The notes beneath the pieces are model-generated. The model was not told the origin of the DNA. It made no database searches and was given only the letters and a program-made list of their open reading frames with translations. The translations under genes and the position numbers were made by a program. Positions 6,121 to 63,855 of a stretch of DNA of 64,000 nucleotides are shown here, piece after piece (position 1 is the first letter of the stretch; each line of letters opens with the position of its first letter). The DNA comes from Smittium mucronatum (lineage: Eukaryota > Kickxellomycota > Harpellomycetes > Harpellales > Legeriomycetaceae): contig LSSL01001024.1 of the NCBI GenBank assembly GCA_001953115.1, forward strand, positions 25,971 through 89,970. Reading direction: 5' to 3'.

Positions 6121-6458
6121 TGCTAAAAAGGTATTATATAAACCATCTATTAATCTAGAATTGGAATTACGAAAAAAATCTTTTATTGGCAAAATGATGA
6201 ATTTTTATTAATGCTAGCATAATTTTCCTATTTTTTTTTGGCTTACCATTGTTACATTTCATTATAGCCAATGGTTTACACCTGAAAAAAAGGTCTAGTC
6301 TTTAAAAGAATCTTCTCAAACCCAGACCAATTAATTCTCTTCATGCATAAAATTAAAATAAAAATATTCTTTTTATTCGTGGAGCATAATTATTTTTTTA
6401 TAGAAAAAAAAGCATTTTACCCAATAAATGCTATTAATTTTACAGATTTGGCATATTC

Positions 6459-6696
6459 TTAACCCTTTCGTTGTCGGTAAGCCATTTCGTGTAATTTTCA
6501 TTGATAATATTTACACTTTGATTTCAGCTTTGATAAATTAACGTACTATTGGTTAAATATTTAAAATTATTAATATACTTGCCAATTTAAAAAATCTAAC
6601 CGCTAGTACGTTAATTTATAAAGTCGAAAATTAAAGAGGTGTAAATATTGGCCATAGAAATCGCATTAAATGGCCCACTGACGGCGAAAGGGTTAA
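6459..6696. mobile_element. TTAA-flanked foldback MITE (type B)
   Basis: Starts TTAACCCTTTCG and ends CGAAAGGGTTAA. Inside the termini the two arms remain complementary for about 85 bp with mismatches: AATATTTACAC near 6509 pairs with GTGTAAATATT near 6640, and TTAACGTACTA near 6539 pairs with TAGTACGTTAA near 6604. The TTAA duplication and the CCC-type terminus are the hallmark of piggyBac-type elements. No transposase is encoded, so it would be non-autonomous. Assignment to the piggyBac superfamily rests on termini alone. Confidence 0.75.
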
Positions 6697-7023
6697 AAAA
6701 CGAAAAACGGATTACTATTAATCAGAATTTCATTTAAATTAGGAAATAAGAAGCTCATAAAAATAAAACTCTGGTATATCAAAGAATCTGCCATATACAT
6801 ACCACTAATACAAATGTAATTATAAGAGATATGGGATTCGTTTTGAAAGACTTATTTTTGCCATTTAAACCATTGGTCTAAAATGAATTCACTTTACATC
6901 CAAACCAATAAAATTAGAAAATCGTAATGTTTTAATAACCCATCAATATTTTAGCCAATAGAAAATTCTCTTTGTTATATCAGATCTTACACTCACTATA
7001 ATTTTATAGAGTATTTTTTATTT

Positions 7024-12514: not shown

Positions 12515-12613
12515 ACTTATATATATCTCCTATATGAGATATAATGTAAATATTAATCGGGCTCAGAGAGCTATTATTTATTAATATTATACGATTATAG
12601 GAGAGATATATAA
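12515..12613 (+). repeat. DIRS-1 internal complementary region
   Basis: The first half (CTTATATATATCTCCTATAT then GAGATATAATG) is complementary to the left outer edge at 8461-8489. The second half (ATTATACGATTATAGGAGA then TATATAAGT) is complementary to the right outer edge at 12755-12786. A composite of both element ends placed just inside the 3' ITR is diagnostic of DIRS elements. Confidence 0.75.
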
Positions 12614-12616
12614 GTA

Positions 12617-12787
12617 CCACCCAGTCAGTGACTATTTTATCTATGTGAAAAGATAATAATCATATAATCATATGTATTTTACAAAATATAAATGGATTTA
12701 TTTAGTTTTTAGAGCTTATAATTTCGGTTATATTATCAAATAATTAAGTTAAAACTTATATATATCTCCTATAATCGTATAATACTG
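12617..12787 (-). repeat. DIRS-1 right inverted terminal repeat
   Basis: Aligns as the reverse complement of 8461-8610. Best-conserved blocks are TAATTTCGGTTATATTATC (12720-12738) and the outer ATATATATCTCCTATAATCG. The inner block GAAAAGATAATAATCATATA lies at 12648-12667. Confidence 0.72.
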
Positions 12788-12870
12788 AATCATATTTGCT
12801 TTCCCAGCTTGATTAATATTCATATAATACGAAATAAATAGACATAAGGCGTTAATAGTTTCAATTTATA

Positions 12871-14899: not shown

Positions 14900-15060
14900 C
14901 ACCTTTTCAGGACAAAATTCGAAAAAAGTAAAATTGATTTAAAAAAATGAAAAACTATTGGTTTTTAGTAAAATTAATTTCGTAAAAAAGTAAGAATGAA
15001 TTGGATAAAATTCCAATTAATTAGAAAAAAAATAATACAATTTTGGAAGGTGAAACTGAG
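14900..15060 (+). repeat. Tc1-1 left TIR
   Basis: Reverse complement of 16641-16805 with a moderate number of differences. Shared blocks include AGTAAGAATGAATTGGATAA and TGAAACTGA. Confidence 0.85.
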
Positions 15061-15198
15061 AAATGTAAAATTATTAAACCAGGCACCGAACCACATATAA
15101 AATAGCTCTATCACGTGTAAAAAAAAACTGCGTGTTTTCGATAAAAATTCGTGACATTTCTCGAAATAATACTGCATATTAGTCATTAATTTCCTTCT

Positions 15199-16175
15199 CT
15201 ATGATTCTGATGTCCCACTCGACTTGTGTAAATTCTCTATTAGAATCTCTATTATTAATTTTCTGACATTATCAAACATTCTTTTCTTAATAATATATTT
15301 GATTACAATCCATGAATTTTCTATTGGACTTAACATAGGAGAATAAGGGCTTAGATAAAATGACACCACCCCTTCATAAATGGAAATTGAATCCAGAATA
15401 ACATTTTGACAGGTCATGTTATCAGAAATAATAACGATATTTGACGAATATAAACCAATTATAATTACCTTATTTATCATTACCTTAATCCATTCGTCAC
15501 AATAAACTGATCTATAGCTATTTCTTTTTGTTTTAAAATGCAAATACCAAGGGTTGAAATCCCATATATCATGTGTAAATTTGGCCCTTTAATTTTTGGG
15601 AGCTTTGCCACAGCCCTCTGACCTTTTTCCGATATTACTCTATATCTCTTCAAAAATAAATTTAAATCACTTTTATCGATAAAGATGAAGAGCCTTGCTA
15701 AACTGGAATATTGTAGAAAAAAATTTACATGATTTTTACCCCTGACTTTATTTTCAAAAGAGTAAATTTGGGATGGCTCCATATGCGTTCCTTTAATCGT
15801 AAATTTTTTAAAAAACAGATTTTTGCTGGTTGTCCGCTTCGAGACTATCAAATCAAATTCCATGTTTAATTTTTTTTAATCCTTTAAGCGTGTAATGCAG
15901 ATTTCCATCAATTTTTTTTTCTGAAAATTCCGAATGACTTTCAAGTATTTTTGCGACCCCTAACCTATTTGTACCCATATTTTTTGGCTGACAGATCCAT
16001 ATTTTATCCAACCATATGCAGTTCAATCTGGTATTTTATGGGCAATTAATAAACTGATGCATTCAAACTCACTTTCAGACTATTTTACAATAGAATCTCT
16101 AACATAATAGGGATATTTTTTGTAACAAACCCTTACTGTTTCATTTACAGAATTATCAATTTCAGTTAAATACAT
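15199..16175 (-). pseudogene. Tc1/mariner-like DDE transposase
   Basis: ATG at 16175 opens MYLTEIDNSVNETVRVCYKK. A degenerate helix-turn-helix part includes TAYGWIKYGSVSQK. From 15863 the frame EFDLIVSKRTTSKNLFFKKF runs through FIFIDKSDLNLFLKR (first Asp), RAVAKLPKIKGPNLHM and YRSVYCDEWIKVM. Then come IVIISDNMTCQNV (second Asp) and YLSPYSPMLSPIENSWIVI (Glu). The second Asp and the Glu are 34 positions apart, close to the DD34E pattern. One frameshift near 15535 joins the two best frames, and the N-terminal part has stops. The length, about 325 codons, is normal for the family. All three catalytic residues survive although the gene is broken. Confidence 0.85.
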
Positions 16176-16640
16176 ATTTTACTTGGTATAAATAGCCCAA
16201 AAAATGATTTTGAATGGTTCTAAACAAAGGGGAAATTTTGAGGGCTAGATTATATTTTTTTAGTAGTATTTGGAGGTTAAAATCTTAAGAAAAAAAAACA
16301 GATTTATCCTTTGAATACGCAGATTATTAACCGAAAAAAAAATTAAGACGAAAATTGTGACACAATTAATAAATATCAAAGATTAAAATGTAATTTTTTT
16401 AAACTTTAGTAAAAAACAATTGAAAATATTACATAAACATAAAATTGATAAATATCTTCATGTGACGTAATTTAAATTTTATCAATTTCAAAATAATTTA
16501 AAGCGTATCACTGAAAAAAATTCTGAGATGTTTTAAAAAAATAAAAGCAACCATATATGGAAATCATTATCAATTTTTATTAAATACCAAAAAAAGGATA
16601 GTATGTTATAGTTAAACTAAATGAGTAGCTTTTGGTACTT

Positions 16641-16805
16641 CAGTTTCACCCTTTGAAATTGGAATTCTTTTTTATTTTTTTAATTTATTGGAGTTTTATC
16701 CAATTCATTCTTACTTTTTGCAAAATAAATTTTACTAAAAACCGATATTATTTCACTTTTTTTGCAATCAATTTTAATTTTTTCGAATTTGGTCCTGAAA
16801 AGGCA
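16641..16805 (-). repeat. Tc1-1 right TIR
   Basis: Reverse complement of the left TIR, ending CGAATTTGGTCCTGAAAAGG. Short open frames starting in it read out into the MULE sequence. Confidence 0.85.
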
Positions 16806-45400: not shown

Positions 45401-46200
45401 TACCATAATATTTGAAGATCTGTTCAACTATATATTCACAATAAAAGAAATTGAAAGGCCAATTGCTTTATCAGTAGATGTGGATAAAGGGAAAAAATGG
45501 TTCAACTAATCTTATAAAGAAGAATAGTCTTTCCCAAAAAAGAATTTGAAAATATCCGGAGAAAAATTTAAAAACTTCACCAATCAAAGCATAAAAAATA
45601 ATCTAGAAAAAATAAGTGGACACGAAAAATGCATAATCCCTAAATCGGATAAGCTGGGGAGAATATCAAGCAGAGAACCAAATTTATATTGGCTTAAAAT
45701 ATATGGAATGAGAATTGAACCAAAAATAAAAAGTCACCTATGGCTCTTTTTTTACAATGAAATTATCACTCTAGAAAGGGTGCAAATTTGGAATAAAGGA
45801 ATTTTTGACGAATCACAGAGATGTAAAGCATGTAATATAAAAATGCAGAATATTCCCCACATATGCTTTGGATGCAAGAGAATCAAAGAATTCTGTAAAA
45901 TTATTTATCACTTTATAGAAACCCATAGTCAAAACCCCAATGAAAGGATTGGAAGGGTCAATCTGGATGTCTTTTTTGAATTCATGAAACCAGTAGATTA
46001 TCTATTCCCAAGCTCGCAAATACAATACGCTAACGCAATGTAGAACATCAGTAGAGCAAGTACAGAAGCCAATCTATCAAAAAAATCATTCAAGCATCTG
46101 TTATTTTCTCCAATTGGGTCAACAAATTGAAACCCACAATAAAAAATGATTGTATCTATGCCAATAAAATGGAATAATGGACAAGGATCAAAAATAACTG
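42476..46200 (+). pseudogene. LINE-2 ORF2: endonuclease, RT, Cys/His finger
   Basis: ATG at 42476 opens MEEKEIIKIARFNFKGIFDK, the start of an APE-type endonuclease. QETNIKEKDKNF and YLPNGKETEIFF follow in other frames. The RT is clear: LKNYISIALSKAEEKIYTKI, then NQSGFIKKKNI, then LMLDQEKAYDRLYLKYLFIR (motif A) at 44246-44305. NIRQGDQLSPLLYNVIIESL (motif B) lies at about 44407-44470, and KYEDDLLIG (motif C) near 44535-44562, where the usual Ala is Glu but both Asp remain. ERLxRxLGGxGL-like thumb text and GLGLINIETQ follow. The C-terminus has CKACNIKMQNIPHICFGC, a CCHC finger, at 45823-45876. Several frameshifts and stops, though some frames are open for 95 to 165 codons. Confidence 0.83.
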
Positions 46201-57760: not shown

Positions 57761-59393
57761 GAAATTTTTCGAAATTAACACTTTTTTTATTCATTAAAAA
57801 ATATATCTAATTGTAAGGATGCATATTGCTCATGTATAAATTTTCTAATGTCTAAGAGGTTAAATAATATATAATAGTTTCTCTCAAAGATTAACAGGAC
57901 TGATGTACTAAGAATAACATCACTTTCAAAGAAAAGATTAGCCGAAAGAAAAAATATAATAAAAAAGAAGTAATGCTTGAAAAATCATATTTTTAAATGT
58001 TTAAATTTTCATTAAAAGTTTAGAAATAAATTCAAATTCTTGAATTTGAGCATTATCTATCAACAAATAAGATATTTATTAGATTAAATGGGGTTAAAAT
58101 ATAAGCGAAAATATTTACGTAAATTTTTATTGAGATTTGTGAAGATACATAATCTATTGATAGCACAAGGGATGGGATTTCCGCACTAACAATAAATGTC
58201 AGGTTGTTTAGAAATTCACTATTTGTATACTTTAAACTATATATTATTCCGGAATCGTGATCTTTTTACATTTACGTAATTCTTCATTGCTCTTCTTAAA
58301 GCTGAATTGTGTGCTATGAGCACATAAAGACCTTTGAATGTAATATTCATCAGCCTACGGATAAGGAAAAAATGAGTTTCTCCGTCGATTAAATCTTTTA
58401 AATAGCATAATTTTATATTTTTAAAGTAAATTTATCTAAAAAATAACAATGAAAAAAGAAAAAAATAAAGCTTAAATGTCACATGATAATTTCAAATAAT
58501 TGTAAGATGACTGGTAACTTAGAACTAATTGGGAGATTAAAAGATCCAAAAAAAATTAAAGAAAAGTAAAGGCCATGAAAATAAAGGAAGTTTAGTCTAT
58601 ATTACTATATACTTTTTTCTGTTTATCAATGTTTGAATAAATTGTTTTCTAAAAGTGATAGAATTTAGAATTATTATTTAACCCCCCCCCCTCCAAACGC
58701 TTTAGATTACATTCACACTATTATAGTTAGTTTTAATGTAAATCTTTTAGAAAAAAATTTCATATTATAATTCAGAGGAAATTTGAAACTGCTGGATTTT
58801 TGCAGAAATTGCATGAGTTTTAATAAATTCATCAAATTTCAATTCAATTAATTTGATTTTTATAACCCAAAAAGTGAAATTTTACCTTCTCTTTTTTTTA
58901 TGAATAGTTATGTGAGGTTTTTTCTTTAAAAAAATCTTATTATTCAATATCAATCTTATTAAGAAGCCCCATCAAGTAATAATTATATTTTTAATTTTCT
59001 TTTTCGTTTTCTTTTATCTAATTTTCATTTCTATTTTAAGAAATCAAAAATGTTTAATTTTTCAGTTTAATAAAATAATCTGATTAATATTGGAATTTTT
59101 TTGCTATAATCAAAGTTGGATAAATAGGAGATTTTTTCCGACATAAGGTCTTTTTTACTTTGTAAACTATTTTCATTAGTAAAATCTAATCATTTCCTTA
59201 CAAATAGAAATCAAGAAAACTGTGAATCTAATAAATTTATAATAAAATATCTCTTCTGAGATTCTAACTACGCATATTTAATTAAATTTTTTCTTAAGCA
59301 TAGAGAAATGTTTTAAGGACAGATAATAACTTTTATTTTAATATTAAAGCTCTCCCTATAAAAGAGAATTCATAAATATTATATTTATTAAAT
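57761..59393. other. AT-rich DNA with C homopolymer
   Basis: No gene. A run of about ten C lies at 58682-58691, unusual in this composition. Confidence 0.5.
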
Positions 59394-59395
59394 TA

Positions 59396-60250
59396 CAGGG
59401 TTTCCATGAATAGTTAAGTTTTTATAATTTTTTGAAATTTTTTCCCAAAAAGCAGCCATATTTTCCCAACATTTTGAAACACTTTCTCAAAATACATACA
59501 AATTTTTTCCTCTCAATGGAACATTTTCCCAATTTCCAGAAGTTTTCTCACAATAAAAATACTTTATTCCCCATCCTGAGAAGCACAATTTCCCAATAAA
59601 TTGAAAGATTTTTACATAATATGGGAAATTAATTTCCAAATACACCCTTTCTAAGGCAAATTCGGAAAAAGTGAAATCAAATAAAAGAAAAGTGAATACA
59701 ATTTGGAAAAAGTGCGACCAAATTGGATTAAAGTAAAAATCAATTCGGAATAAGTCAATTCAATTTTGTCTCAGTGCACCCAATTGCAATAAAAGTGAAA
59801 GAGGATAAGAAAAAGTGAATCCTATTACGATAAAGGTAAATTTAAATCAGAAAAAAGTGAATCCAATTTTTTTTTAAATAAAATAAAGACGATTTACATA
59901 TTAATTATATGTTTACGTTTATGTAAAAAAAATCAGTGGTAATTTCTTGTCTTATTTTACAATTTTTCGATTTACAGAGCAGACAGTGGATTTATGTAAA
60001 TTTTTTCGTTTTCAATAAGAAATTATGTTGCTACGCTATAAAAACATAAGCGTAATTTCCATTAGAAAAATAATAATGATTTTTTGATGAAATTTTGACA
60101 TATCACACAATTTTTTGCAATACTGCTTCATTAAAACCGAAATTTTAAGTGAAAAAAAGGAATTTCTGATGATTAATAATTCCTATGGATTGAAAAGTAT
60201 GTTCTCTTTGAAATATCAAAACTCACATAAATATTTCACTTCTAAGTTTA
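59396..60250 (+). repeat. Tc1-2 left TIR with two iteron classes
   Basis: Outer zone 59440-59610: repeated TTTTCCCAA-type words (for example ATTTTCCCAACATTTTGAA and ACATTTTCCCAATTTCC). Inner zone 59656-59875: about ten degenerate repeats of a GAAAAAGTGAATCCAATT consensus spaced about 20-22 bp. The rest is unique sequence. Confidence 0.85.
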
Positions 60251-60589
60251 ATTTCTAAATAATAAAAAGAAATATTGAATATTGAAAAAATTTATACTTT
60301 GATAATAAAGAGGCGGTGTTTATTAACTATTCATATTTGTAAACCTAATAAGTATAAATAAAATTTAACATTTATAAAATTGATATAAATTAAAAATATA
60401 GTTTATTAAAAATAGACGAAAATTAAAAAAGTGTGGGAATGGAAATTAAAAAACGTATTAGACACAGAATTTCATGTCCTTAAGTTTGATCGCATCGAAA
60501 AAAAAAAAGGATGTACTCGTCCCGTAAATCTTCTACACGTTTTGGGTGTTACAACACCTAAAAATTACTGAATTTTCTCTTCAATTATC

Positions 60590-61560
60590 CTAGTTGCTCA
60601 TTCAGCTTGAGTGCATTGCTGATTGGGGTATCCTTCAGGAGAATTTTTATTTTACAGAACATATATTTTTTTATTCTTCGATTTTACTACACTCCACAAA
60701 TTTTCAATCTGATTTAGGATATGTGAATATGGGCCTAGAAAAATTAGCTCAATGCCATCATATATATATACCACATCTCTAATTTGGATATGACACCTCG
60801 CGTTTTCATATATTATAAAGTTATTTTATCGGTGTATTCCTCTCGATAGGGCCTCGATAATAAGCTCGTTCACCCAAGAATTGCAGTCCGCAGATTTGTA
60901 ATTTTTCCTTTTATTTTTAAAATTTAAAATTACCATGAATGATGGACCACTAACCACGTGAATATTTGGTCCTTTTGTTAAAGGCAGTTTTACAACAGTC
61001 CTTTGTCCTCCTATTGCCATACACCTTGTTCTTCTAATAAATAGGTTGAAATTAATTTTTTCAATGAAAATAAAGAACTTCCCTGAGCTGGAATAAGTCA
61101 GGAATTTATTTAAGCAATATCTAGGATTTTATTTATTAATTTGATGATTTGCTTGCGTTGGCTCCAAATGAGTCCCCTTAACAGTGAATTTTTTATAATA
61201 TAAATTTCTGCATATGGTTTGTATGAAAAAATTCAAATTGTATTTTAAATAAAGAATTTCGATAATTCCTTGAGAATATATAGCGGGTTTTCTTCTAATT
61301 TTTTTTTCAGAAATTCATATTGAACTCCCATAAATTTAATTCTACCAGATCTACACCCTCCTCTAATATCCGGACGAATTTTACCGGGTTATATCAAACC
61401 ATAGGCAGTAGATATATGAATATTATGAGCTGATATCAGGAATTGAAATTTTTTTATATTTTCAGCCTATTTTAATACTGCTGTTCTGATGGATTGAGTA
61501 TATTTTTTTATTAACCCACTTATATAGTAAAAAAGTATGTTTCTTTAAGAATGAATGACT
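60590..61560 (-). pseudogene. Tc1/mariner-like DDE transposase (Tc1-2)
   Basis: On the minus strand from about 61560: HNIHISTAYGL (helix-turn-helix), GGCRSGRIKFMGVQYEFLKK, then LYYKKFTVKGTHLEPTQANH. FFIFIEKINFNLFIRRTR follows, where the first catalytic Asp is now Glu or lost. TVVKLPLTKGPNIHVVSG and YKSADCNSWVNELIIEALS follow (61020 to 60830). The final part is degraded: ANFSRPIFTYPKSD for SPYSPxLNPIEN, so the Glu region is lost. Stops lie near 61130 and in the last third. It is homologous throughout to the transposase of Tc1-1. Confidence 0.78.
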
Positions 61561-61649
61561 CCATTTTGTATATATTGAAAAAATAAATTTCTAATTTAAA
61601 AAACCTCATATGTATTCAACCCGGTATTTATACAATCTCTATAAAGAAG

Positions 61650-62504
61650 TAAACTTTAAAGTGAAATATTTATGTGAGTTTTGATATTTCAAAGAGAACA
61701 TACTTTTCAATCCATAGGAATTATTAATCATCAGAAATTCCTTTTTTTCACTTAAAATTTCGGTTTTAATGAAGCAGTATTGCAAAAAATTGTGTGATAT
61801 GTCAAAATTTCATCAAAAAATCATTATTATTTTTCTAATGGAAATTACGCTTATGTTTTTATAGCGTAGCAACATAATTTCTTATTGAAAACGAAAAAAT
61901 TTACATAAATCCACTGTCTGCTCTGTAAATCGAAAAATTGTAAAATAAGACAAGAAATTACCACTGATTTTTTTTACATAAACGTAAACATATAATTAAT
62001 ATGTAAATCGTCTTTATTTTATTTAAAAAAAAATTGGATTCACTTTTTTCTGATTTAAATTTACCTTTATCGTAATAGGATTCACTTTTTCTTATCCTCT
62101 TTCACTTTTATTGCAATTGGGTGCACTGAGACAAAATTGAATTGACTTATTCCGAATTGATTTTTACTTTAATCCAATTTGGTCGCACTTTTTCCAAATT
62201 GTATTCACTTTTCTTTTATTTGATTTCACTTTTTCCGAATTTGCCTTAGAAAGGGTGTATTTGGAAATTAATTTCCCATATTATGTAAAAATCTTTCAAT
62301 TTATTGGGAAATTGTGCTTCTCAGGATGGGGAATAAAGTATTTTTATTGTGAGAAAACTTCTGGAAATTGGGAAAATGTTCCATTGAGAGGAAAAAATTT
62401 GTATGTATTTTGAGAAAGTGTTTCAAAATGTTGGGAAAATATGGCTGCTTTTTGGGAAAAAATTTCAAAAAATTATAAAAACTTAACTATTCTTGGAAAC
62501 CCTG
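61650..62504 (-). repeat. Tc1-2 right TIR
   Basis: Reverse complement of 59396-60250, base for base over long stretches, including the iteron zones (62025-62244 and 62290-62460). Confidence 0.88.
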
Positions 62505-62506
62505 TA

Positions 62507-63855
62507 ATTAAGGATTGCAAAAATACTGATGGAAAGCAGTTATAGGTAGATTTAAAAATAAAATTTCCTAATATGCTTATTTTTGAGACTCGTCTTGGCT
62601 TTTTAAAAGCTACGCCAATTAACCGTCAAAAACTTAATAGAAATATAATTACGAGAGATATTATCCGATTTGGCAAAAAAAACTCAAATCGCTTTTTATT
62701 TACTCAAAATGGCAGGTATTTCTGCAAAAATTTGTAATAAAGGGGGGGGGGGGAATCCTTTTAATAATTGGATTTTTTATATTATAAAATGCTATTACAA
62801 ATTATATCACATTTATTCGACATTAATTATATATATATTATTTTAAAGATCTAAATCATATTTTCGATTAATATTTTTTATAGATGAGCCAATGATGAAA
62901 AATATTATATTTTATAAAACTGATAATTATGCTACCAATGCAATTGATGACTTTAAAAATGTTAAAGACTCGAAATTGGATATAATTTCAAGTAAAAAAA
63001 ATGGCTCTAAGTATTTAAAATATTTTGAAAATAGTTACAATAATTGGTTATAATGTTTAAAATCCACTAATAATGTTACAATGGTGTCAGTACTGAAGAA
63101 ATACAGGATATTTAGCCTAATTTTTAAATTTTTAAACCTCTGAATTAAAAGAATACCATCCTGTAAAAAAAAAACAGAAAAAAATGCATATTTTTGTTGA
63201 TTTTTCAGAATTTACTATTACTTGGGCAGAAATTAAGTGAAATTTCTTATAGGTAAAATCTCCTGTATTTATTCCAACACGTTAAAGTTATAATAAGTTT
63301 GTTTTGTAATAAAAATTTTTTATTGAATAGTTCAGATTCATTTGAAAATAAGCGTAAATTTTTCGATTAAACGAATTTCATTCAAAACGAGTGCTTTTGT
63401 TCAAACTTAAAATTTAATAACTTTATAATGACCTTCCATCCATTTTCATAAAATTTATCAGCACTAACTCTAATAAAAAAAGATGGTATTTTCTTAAATT
63501 AATTTCTTCTTTTATTGATATAAAATTTTGATTTTTTTATTTAAATTTTTAGCTTTATCTAGTTGTTAAAAGAAATTGCTGTGTGCAATAATAAATAAAG
63601 TGAGAATTTATCTGAGGTGCACCAATATAATCATTACAGCAATGTGTGTCTTACAAATTTTCTCTTCAGCAATTTGACAACTAAAAGCGTAACTGTCTGA
63701 TAACAAATAATATAAGTTTATATCATTTATTATTATTATTTTCATAATTTTTATTCAAATAAATAGCTTCATAAATTACTGAGTAAAAGATACAGATCAT
63801 TTTTTCAAAAAAATAAAATAAAAAGGATATTTTTCTATAAAAAACTCTATTCAAT
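62507..63855. other. AT-rich DNA with G homopolymer
   Basis: No gene. A run of G (about 12) lies at 62742-62753. Confidence 0.5.

Follow-up and report, generated by a model that had tools for sequence, protein, structure and literature searches.

How can the two arms of a transposon remain almost identical when the transposase between them is dead? The question is raised by one locus in the Smittium mucronatum window analysed here, a stretch of 64,000 nucleotides (C717:25971-89970) from a genome of 73.8 Mb in 2957 contigs; positions without a contig label are those of the window, and copies elsewhere are named by their contig. Alignment of the left arm (59391-60253) with the inverted right arm (61647-62509) gave 859 identical positions out of 863, with mismatches at 59407, 60242, 60243 and 60251. 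This bears out the near-identical arms of about 850 bp, and the few differences at their inner limit, that had been described in an earlier note, except that the outer mismatch lies at the twelfth base counting from CAGGG (59396) rather than at the eleventh. Chance likeness was ruled out given the 863-nt length of the arms, and outside them the mirror match drops to background. Both ends of the element consist of TA followed by CAGGGTTTCC, reading inward from 59396 and from 62504, and the mirror halts no more than 3 bp from the transposon end with its TA, the two flanks being different past AATTA (Table 1). The arms are separated by 1393 bases, where the dead transposase lies on the minus strand. 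With near-identical mirrored arms around a dead centre, the observation is therefore real in the present assembly.

Table 1 Features of the mirrored element in the window.
Feature	Position	Strand	Basis or remark
TA target-site duplication, left	59394..59395		Sequence; mirrored TA at 62505-62506
Left type-A end (CAGGGTTTCC...)	59396..59640	+	Outer ~245 bp of a longer type-A arm; 1 mismatch to mirror, 59407
Left arm of inner type-B element (TA + CACCCTTTCTAAGG...)	59641..60253	+	3/613 mismatches to right arm, all within last 12 bp
Centre, dead IS630/Tc1/mariner-superfamily transposase (DDE_3)	60254..61646	-	7 in-frame stops in scored codon columns
First catalytic position, Glu not Asp	61060..61062	-	Compared with relatives
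Second catalytic position, Glu not Asp	60805..60807	-	Compared with relatives
Right arm of inner type-B element	61647..62259	-	Arm alignment
Right type-A end, mirror of 59396-59640	62260..62504	-	Arm alignment
TA target-site duplication, right	62505..62506		Sequence

The window also carries, at 187-2583 on the minus strand, a PSP1-domain gene whose product is 73% identical to a Smittium culicis protein, followed over the searched region by proteins of S. simulii (53%) and S. megazygosporum (46%), so that judged by this single gene the DNA is that of a Smittium-like Harpellales fungus; the product is identical to a PSP1-domain product listed on a contig of 96,957 bases, the length of C717 being 89,970 bases. 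On the last contig (C2957:56667-66880), cox1 was matched in four pieces, three of them over the cut-off, and since it is split in this way it is probably an intron-rich mitochondrial gene.

The locus had been regarded as a single element with 855-bp TIRs, a description that was rejected because the arms belong to two families. In a genome search, arm positions 1-245 and about 246-855 matched two separate sets of loci, and the locus is a nested composite, A[B]A, in which a complete type-B element (59641-62259, with arms of ~613 bp) lies between two mirrored type-A ends of ~245 bp. Type-B relatives start at the same point as 59641, most often with TACACCTTTTCTAA, and have arms of ~580-625 bp around a centre of ~1.3-1.4 kb, and in type-A relatives the arms can be aligned over about 290-510 bp and enclose a different centre. 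In the window, the A sequence ends at the B start on both sides and the remainder of A is absent. The search with the outer arm listed 16 matches, two of which are the window's own arms and the other 14 show 68-81% identity; those outside the window include C2565, C877, C2747 and C1350. Among the matches listed, the best elsewhere reached 83% identity for the inner arm, 81% for the outer arm and 77% for the centre. The loci fetched, which covered part of the listed places of type-A inner and centre matches (type-A inner matches on C662, C817 and C570 lie outside the fetched set), contained no omitted type-A segment attached to a B end. A second nested mirror of the same plan, B[B']B, lies inside contig C392, where a short B-type element (2148-2629 of L036) stands between two copies of the same half of another B element; this mirror is free of mismatches over 920 bases counted from the outer end, and its outer flanks are unlike.

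A six-frame genome search with DDE_3 matched the window centre at C717:86637-87041 (41.1 bits, over the cut-off), and DDE_3 was also matched by a fragment of the relative C1454 (E=1.2e-06). TA flanks both outer junctions and both B junctions, and with DDE_3 and TA together the element belongs to the IS630/Tc1/mariner superfamily. The earlier label Tc1-like thus holds at the level of the superfamily but not at that of the family: the Tc1 family (DD34E) has as its hallmark a 34-residue interval between the last two catalytic positions, against 33 in the window and in relatives C1454, C2240 and C1055, as counted by hand on fragments. That the transposase has stops and has lost catalytic positions was confirmed, with seven in-frame stops in the codon columns scored and Glu at two catalytic positions; of the relatives in which these can be read, most have Asp. 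A type-A fragment from C877 matched HTH_Tnp_Tc3_2 (E=1.1e-05) below the curated cut-off, and the type-B N-terminal fragment of C1454 gave only a weak CENP-B_N match. A THAP domain, as present in the P-type transposase of Galileo (P superfamily), was absent among hits at E<=0.1 in the four A/B fragments scanned. The examined copies of types A and B are all dead. The earlier note had suggested looking for an intact related transposase. Of the 93 DDE_3 matches in the genome, 77 have stops inside; the one frame longer than 300 aa that has no stop inside the match (C441:20649-21020, open frame of 346 aa) is possibly a candidate intact relative.

The age of the type-B family was judged from eleven centres, namely those of C1454, the window, C1286, C1055, C2240, C1916, C2838, C2805, C1123, C754 and C110 (ten two-armed copies and C1286; C392 has no full centre). 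They differ pairwise by 21.6-28.0%, and no close pair is present. For the ten centres other than the one that set the reading frame, the three codon positions differ by 26.8/24.8/25.5%, which shows no positional bias, and every centre carries 6-13 in-frame stops among the columns scored. From these patterns the family looks like one old burst followed by unconstrained decay.

The arms of the same copies are far more alike than such an age leads one to expect. Eleven type-B copies have both arms on one contig, a count that omits one-armed or contig-cut loci (L044, L046-L054, L061-L069 and also L072; L047 has 154 bp of its second arm, at 96.8% identity, and L050 is the same locus as C1123). Arm mismatches were 3/613 in the window, 3/625 in C2240, 8/612 in C2805, 0/612 in C392, 5/367 in C1916 (whose right arm is shortened to 367 positions), 22/601 in C1123, 7/611 in C110 (a locus with 196 Ns), 36/608 in C754, 11/587 in C2838, 14/579 in C1454 and 131/606 in C1055. 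Divergence within a copy is thus 0-5.9% in ten of the eleven (nine of ten if C2805 is dropped) and 21.6% in C1055, while the median distance to other arms in the set is 18.7-24.4% and the closest of them lies at 10.6-20.5%, leaving aside a contig end that duplicates the C1123 locus. The tree groups the arms of one element together in the same ten copies and splits those of C1055; eight copies have fully supported sister arms, the C392 arms are identical, and the C1123 arms form a fully supported group with the duplicate contig end.

Mismatches are not spread evenly along the arms. Over the ten homogenised copies, columns 61-520 have 17 mismatches in 4323 positions (0/3452 in the eight copies chosen by dropping C754 and C1454), and the edges stand at 2.1% (columns 1-60), 4.5% (521-560) and 10.9% (561-613). 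In the comparison of divergence within and between elements that had been proposed, copies differ from one another by 17-27% in every bin, and the two arms of C1055 differ from each other by 15-29% in every bin. In all nine homogenised copies with mismatches, none of 5000 shuffles reached the observed identical run; for C1055 it was reached in 82/5000. Uniform, LTR-like ageing of the arms was rejected given this clustering at the edges and the tree and distance data. The GC content of the arms (0.226-0.261) is not above that of the centres (0.258-0.288), and there is hence no sign of GC-biased conversion.

Type A and its relatives are similar, with six of eight copies at 95.6-99.2% arm identity by BLAST (C986, 99.2% over 475; C2198, 99.0% over 398; C1350, 98.9% over 612, including ~100 bp of mirrored flank; C2453, 97.8% over 545; C105, 96.5% over 492; C877, 95.6% over 505), several of which differ mainly at the edges, and two escaped copies (C2747, 89.4% over 293; C540, 79.5% over 483). 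Type-A loci without both arms in hand were left out (C2565, C405, C1687, C2835, C750, C2086, C1017, C2040 and C1376). Across all long-armed copies compared on single contigs, 16 of 19 reach at least 94%, the exceptions being C1055, C540 and C2747. As a shorter-arm control, six copies were picked from a longer list of one separate abundant family, which has arms of 286-334 bp and also a shorter spacer; these show ordinary decay, with 83.5-88.4% identity within a copy and 73-81% between copies. One copy of this abundant family (130 match rows) lies in the right flank of the mirrored element, at ~62925-63855. Other repeats in the window are a decayed Tc1-like element at 14902-16803 (its arms, 14902-15059 and 16640-16803, are ~160 bp long and 83% identical, and the minus strand carries an ORF remnant at 15480-15875), two self-palindromic stretches at 6456-6699 and 12540-12829 (73% and 66% alike), which are probably decayed foldback elements, and an ORF at 45528-46043 that matches zf-RVT (E=4e-07) and is probably what remains of a non-LTR retrotransposon.

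The earlier note had offered two options for the window element, recent movement with a transposase encoded elsewhere, or gene conversion or hairpin-mediated repair that keeps the arms alike. The latter is supported, since ten of eleven old dead copies are homogenised with step-like edges and C1055 has escaped to the divergence expected from its age; recent movement is not needed. It is likely that the arms were equalised in place by arm-to-arm gene conversion long after transposition had ended, and that run-on past the ends of the inner element built the mirrored composite.

That the identity instead reflects youth, the whole unit having moved recently with a transposase acting in trans and its arms having been equalised by gap repair during or just after transposition, appears improbable. 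The intact, TA-flanked A-type ends, the DDE_3 frames elsewhere (among them the C441 frame) and the existence of contig-end arms of the family that are 92.6-95.9% alike would all suit such a history, the last because they could be sibling copies: C2744/C1284 (92.6%), C1532/C305 (93.1%) and C1286/C988 (95.9%) may be halves of one element or siblings, so that some copies may have moved later. Recent movement of the unit is, however, hard to reconcile with near-identical arms around old dead centres in ten of eleven type-B copies, with the distance to the nearest other arm (bar the C1123 duplicate), with mismatches that cluster at the edges, and with the mirrored flanks of C1350 and C110, which point to events after insertion. 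An assembly artefact, in which collapsed arms or a folded-back contig made both identity and mirror, is very unlikely: collapse should not convert ~21% divergence to 0%, and arms that are 4-22% apart stay separate in C877, C754, C1055, C540 and C2747, as do those of the six shorter-arm copies. The assembler does not erase scattered differences, since C877, C754 and C2747 retain them. Moreover, arms read from separate contigs, each pair presumably being one element, are also nearly identical (C1207/C1239, 2/395 mismatches, the match stopping at the arm end; C2607/C305, 4/396, stopping inside the arm; C405/C1687, 16/445), the window mirror ends at a transposon end with TA and unlike flanks, and the fetched loci hold no omitted type-A segment attached to a B end. 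On the side of artefact, the assembly copes poorly with such palindromes: contigs break at type-B arms and many end in them; C988 and C1535, identical over all 2633 bases compared and with the same arm at the end (L061, C988:26300-26932; L062, C1535:1-700), are a redundant or folded-back assembly; C1956 and C1123 share 946 bases; and the mirror outside the C2805 element, 808 bp long, extends to the contig start, so that C2805 is possibly a folded-back contig and its arm identity may be an artefact. The use of Ray for published Smittium assemblies, given in the part of the source drawn on here (PMC5954228), was also counted on this side. A short-read assembler could merge arm differences of a few percent, and arm divergence is therefore more safely described as far below 20% than as exactly zero.

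The composite alone could have another origin, with B inserted at the exact centre of a perfect palindrome of two type-A ends. The central TA would be symmetric and a legal target, and palindrome centres could be preferred targets, but we regard this as unlikely, because no short inverted pair is present among the 14 listed type-A outer-end matches outside the window (more diverged ends could escape such a search), the two pairs among them (C877 and C1350) enclose long centres, and C392 would require the same base-exact insertion again. Spacer-free palindromes of such length are usually unstable.

Under arm-to-arm conversion, an old type-A transposon with ~500-bp arms would have stood at the locus, and a type-B element with ~610-bp arms would have inserted into one of these arms. 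The inverted arms may later have served as templates for mutual repair, probably by synthesis-dependent strand annealing: after a break or stalled fork within or beside one arm, a strand would invade the other arm, copying would proceed through it, and homology-based capture would follow, so that the interiors of the arms stay near-identical as the centre decays. On one occasion, copying from the B arm would have continued across the B end into the adjoining A end and been captured through homology at the opposite A end, thereby deleting the A centre and mirroring everything inward from the A end to yield A[B]A; the mismatch at the twelfth base of the A end would then fall outside the copied tract. 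Loss of the A centre is suggested by the missing piece among the fetched loci, in which part of the type-A inner matches were inspected. If too great a difference between the arms were to block conversion, the system would be bistable, each copy being either converted or escaped. The identity steps, the age of the family, the escaped copies, the dead centres and the anatomy of the composite are thus shown by the data, and the recombination pathway, the sequence of events and the loss of the A centre are inferred from them.

A copied tract that passes the original arm is found in four copies, the window A[B]A, C392, C1350 and C110. In C1350, ~100 bp beyond the type-A end are mirrored with five mismatches, and both termini read TTTTT-CAAGG in place of TA-CAGGG; in C110 it runs ~40 A-rich bp past the element end with four mismatches. 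The outer mirror of C2805 was discounted as run-on evidence, as a possible artefact, because it extends as far as the start of its contig and because the assembly has redundant ends, as at C988/C1535.

The principle is already known from Galileo, a P-superfamily element of Drosophila, since the part of Marzo et al. 2013 considered here describes long TIRs 98-100% alike within a copy and proposes TIR-templated repair with run-on to give longer TIRs, as well as recombination to give chimeric copies (PMC3573991). Long, near-identical TIRs within a copy and a copied tract that runs on are common to both systems, so far as that part of the source goes. The superfamily and host differ, the window match being DDE_3, and the Galileo extension as described there runs inward into its own sequence, whereas that in the window runs outward, into a host element that belongs to a different family. 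The family studied here is dated by its decayed centres and by a copy that escaped, and homogenisation thus appears to post-date activity. Template switching between short inverted repeats also homogenises arms, according to the portion of that work used (PMC8604942); it acts there on short repeats, and the identical tracts of >500 bp with a 1.4-kb spacer found here would fit recombination better. Sex-chromosome palindromes such as human Y P6 undergo arm-to-arm gene conversion, as stated in the part of the source at hand (PMC3723533). As in these palindromes, to the extent that they are described there, inverted arms are here probably held almost identical by conversion, and in this one genome arm identity lies far above age expectation. 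Sex-chromosome palindromes are far larger, and unlike them the present arms are 0.5-0.9-kb transposon ends without evident function. Titles and the starts of abstracts gave no report of in-place arm conversion in dead Tc1/mariner-type elements or of nested two-family mirrors, which is not proof of absence.

Most likely, then, the window arms look young through copying and not through movement of the element. We tentatively suggest, as a generalisation that may well prove too broad, that in this fungus inverted transposon arms above ~400-500 bp behave like miniature palindromes under steady conversion, much faster than mutation and leaving each copy homogenised or escaped, that nesting and run-on are a recurrent route to larger mirrored composites with new ends, and that arm divergence is useless as a clock for TIR elements. 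The case is a dated natural experiment, in which a dead, decayed family with newborn-looking arms stands beside a decaying shorter-arm family and escapees, and it allows recent conversion to be told apart from recent movement in long-TIR elements. It cautions against using TIR divergence to estimate the age of these elements, and it suggests a concrete route from nested elements to larger foldback-like elements.
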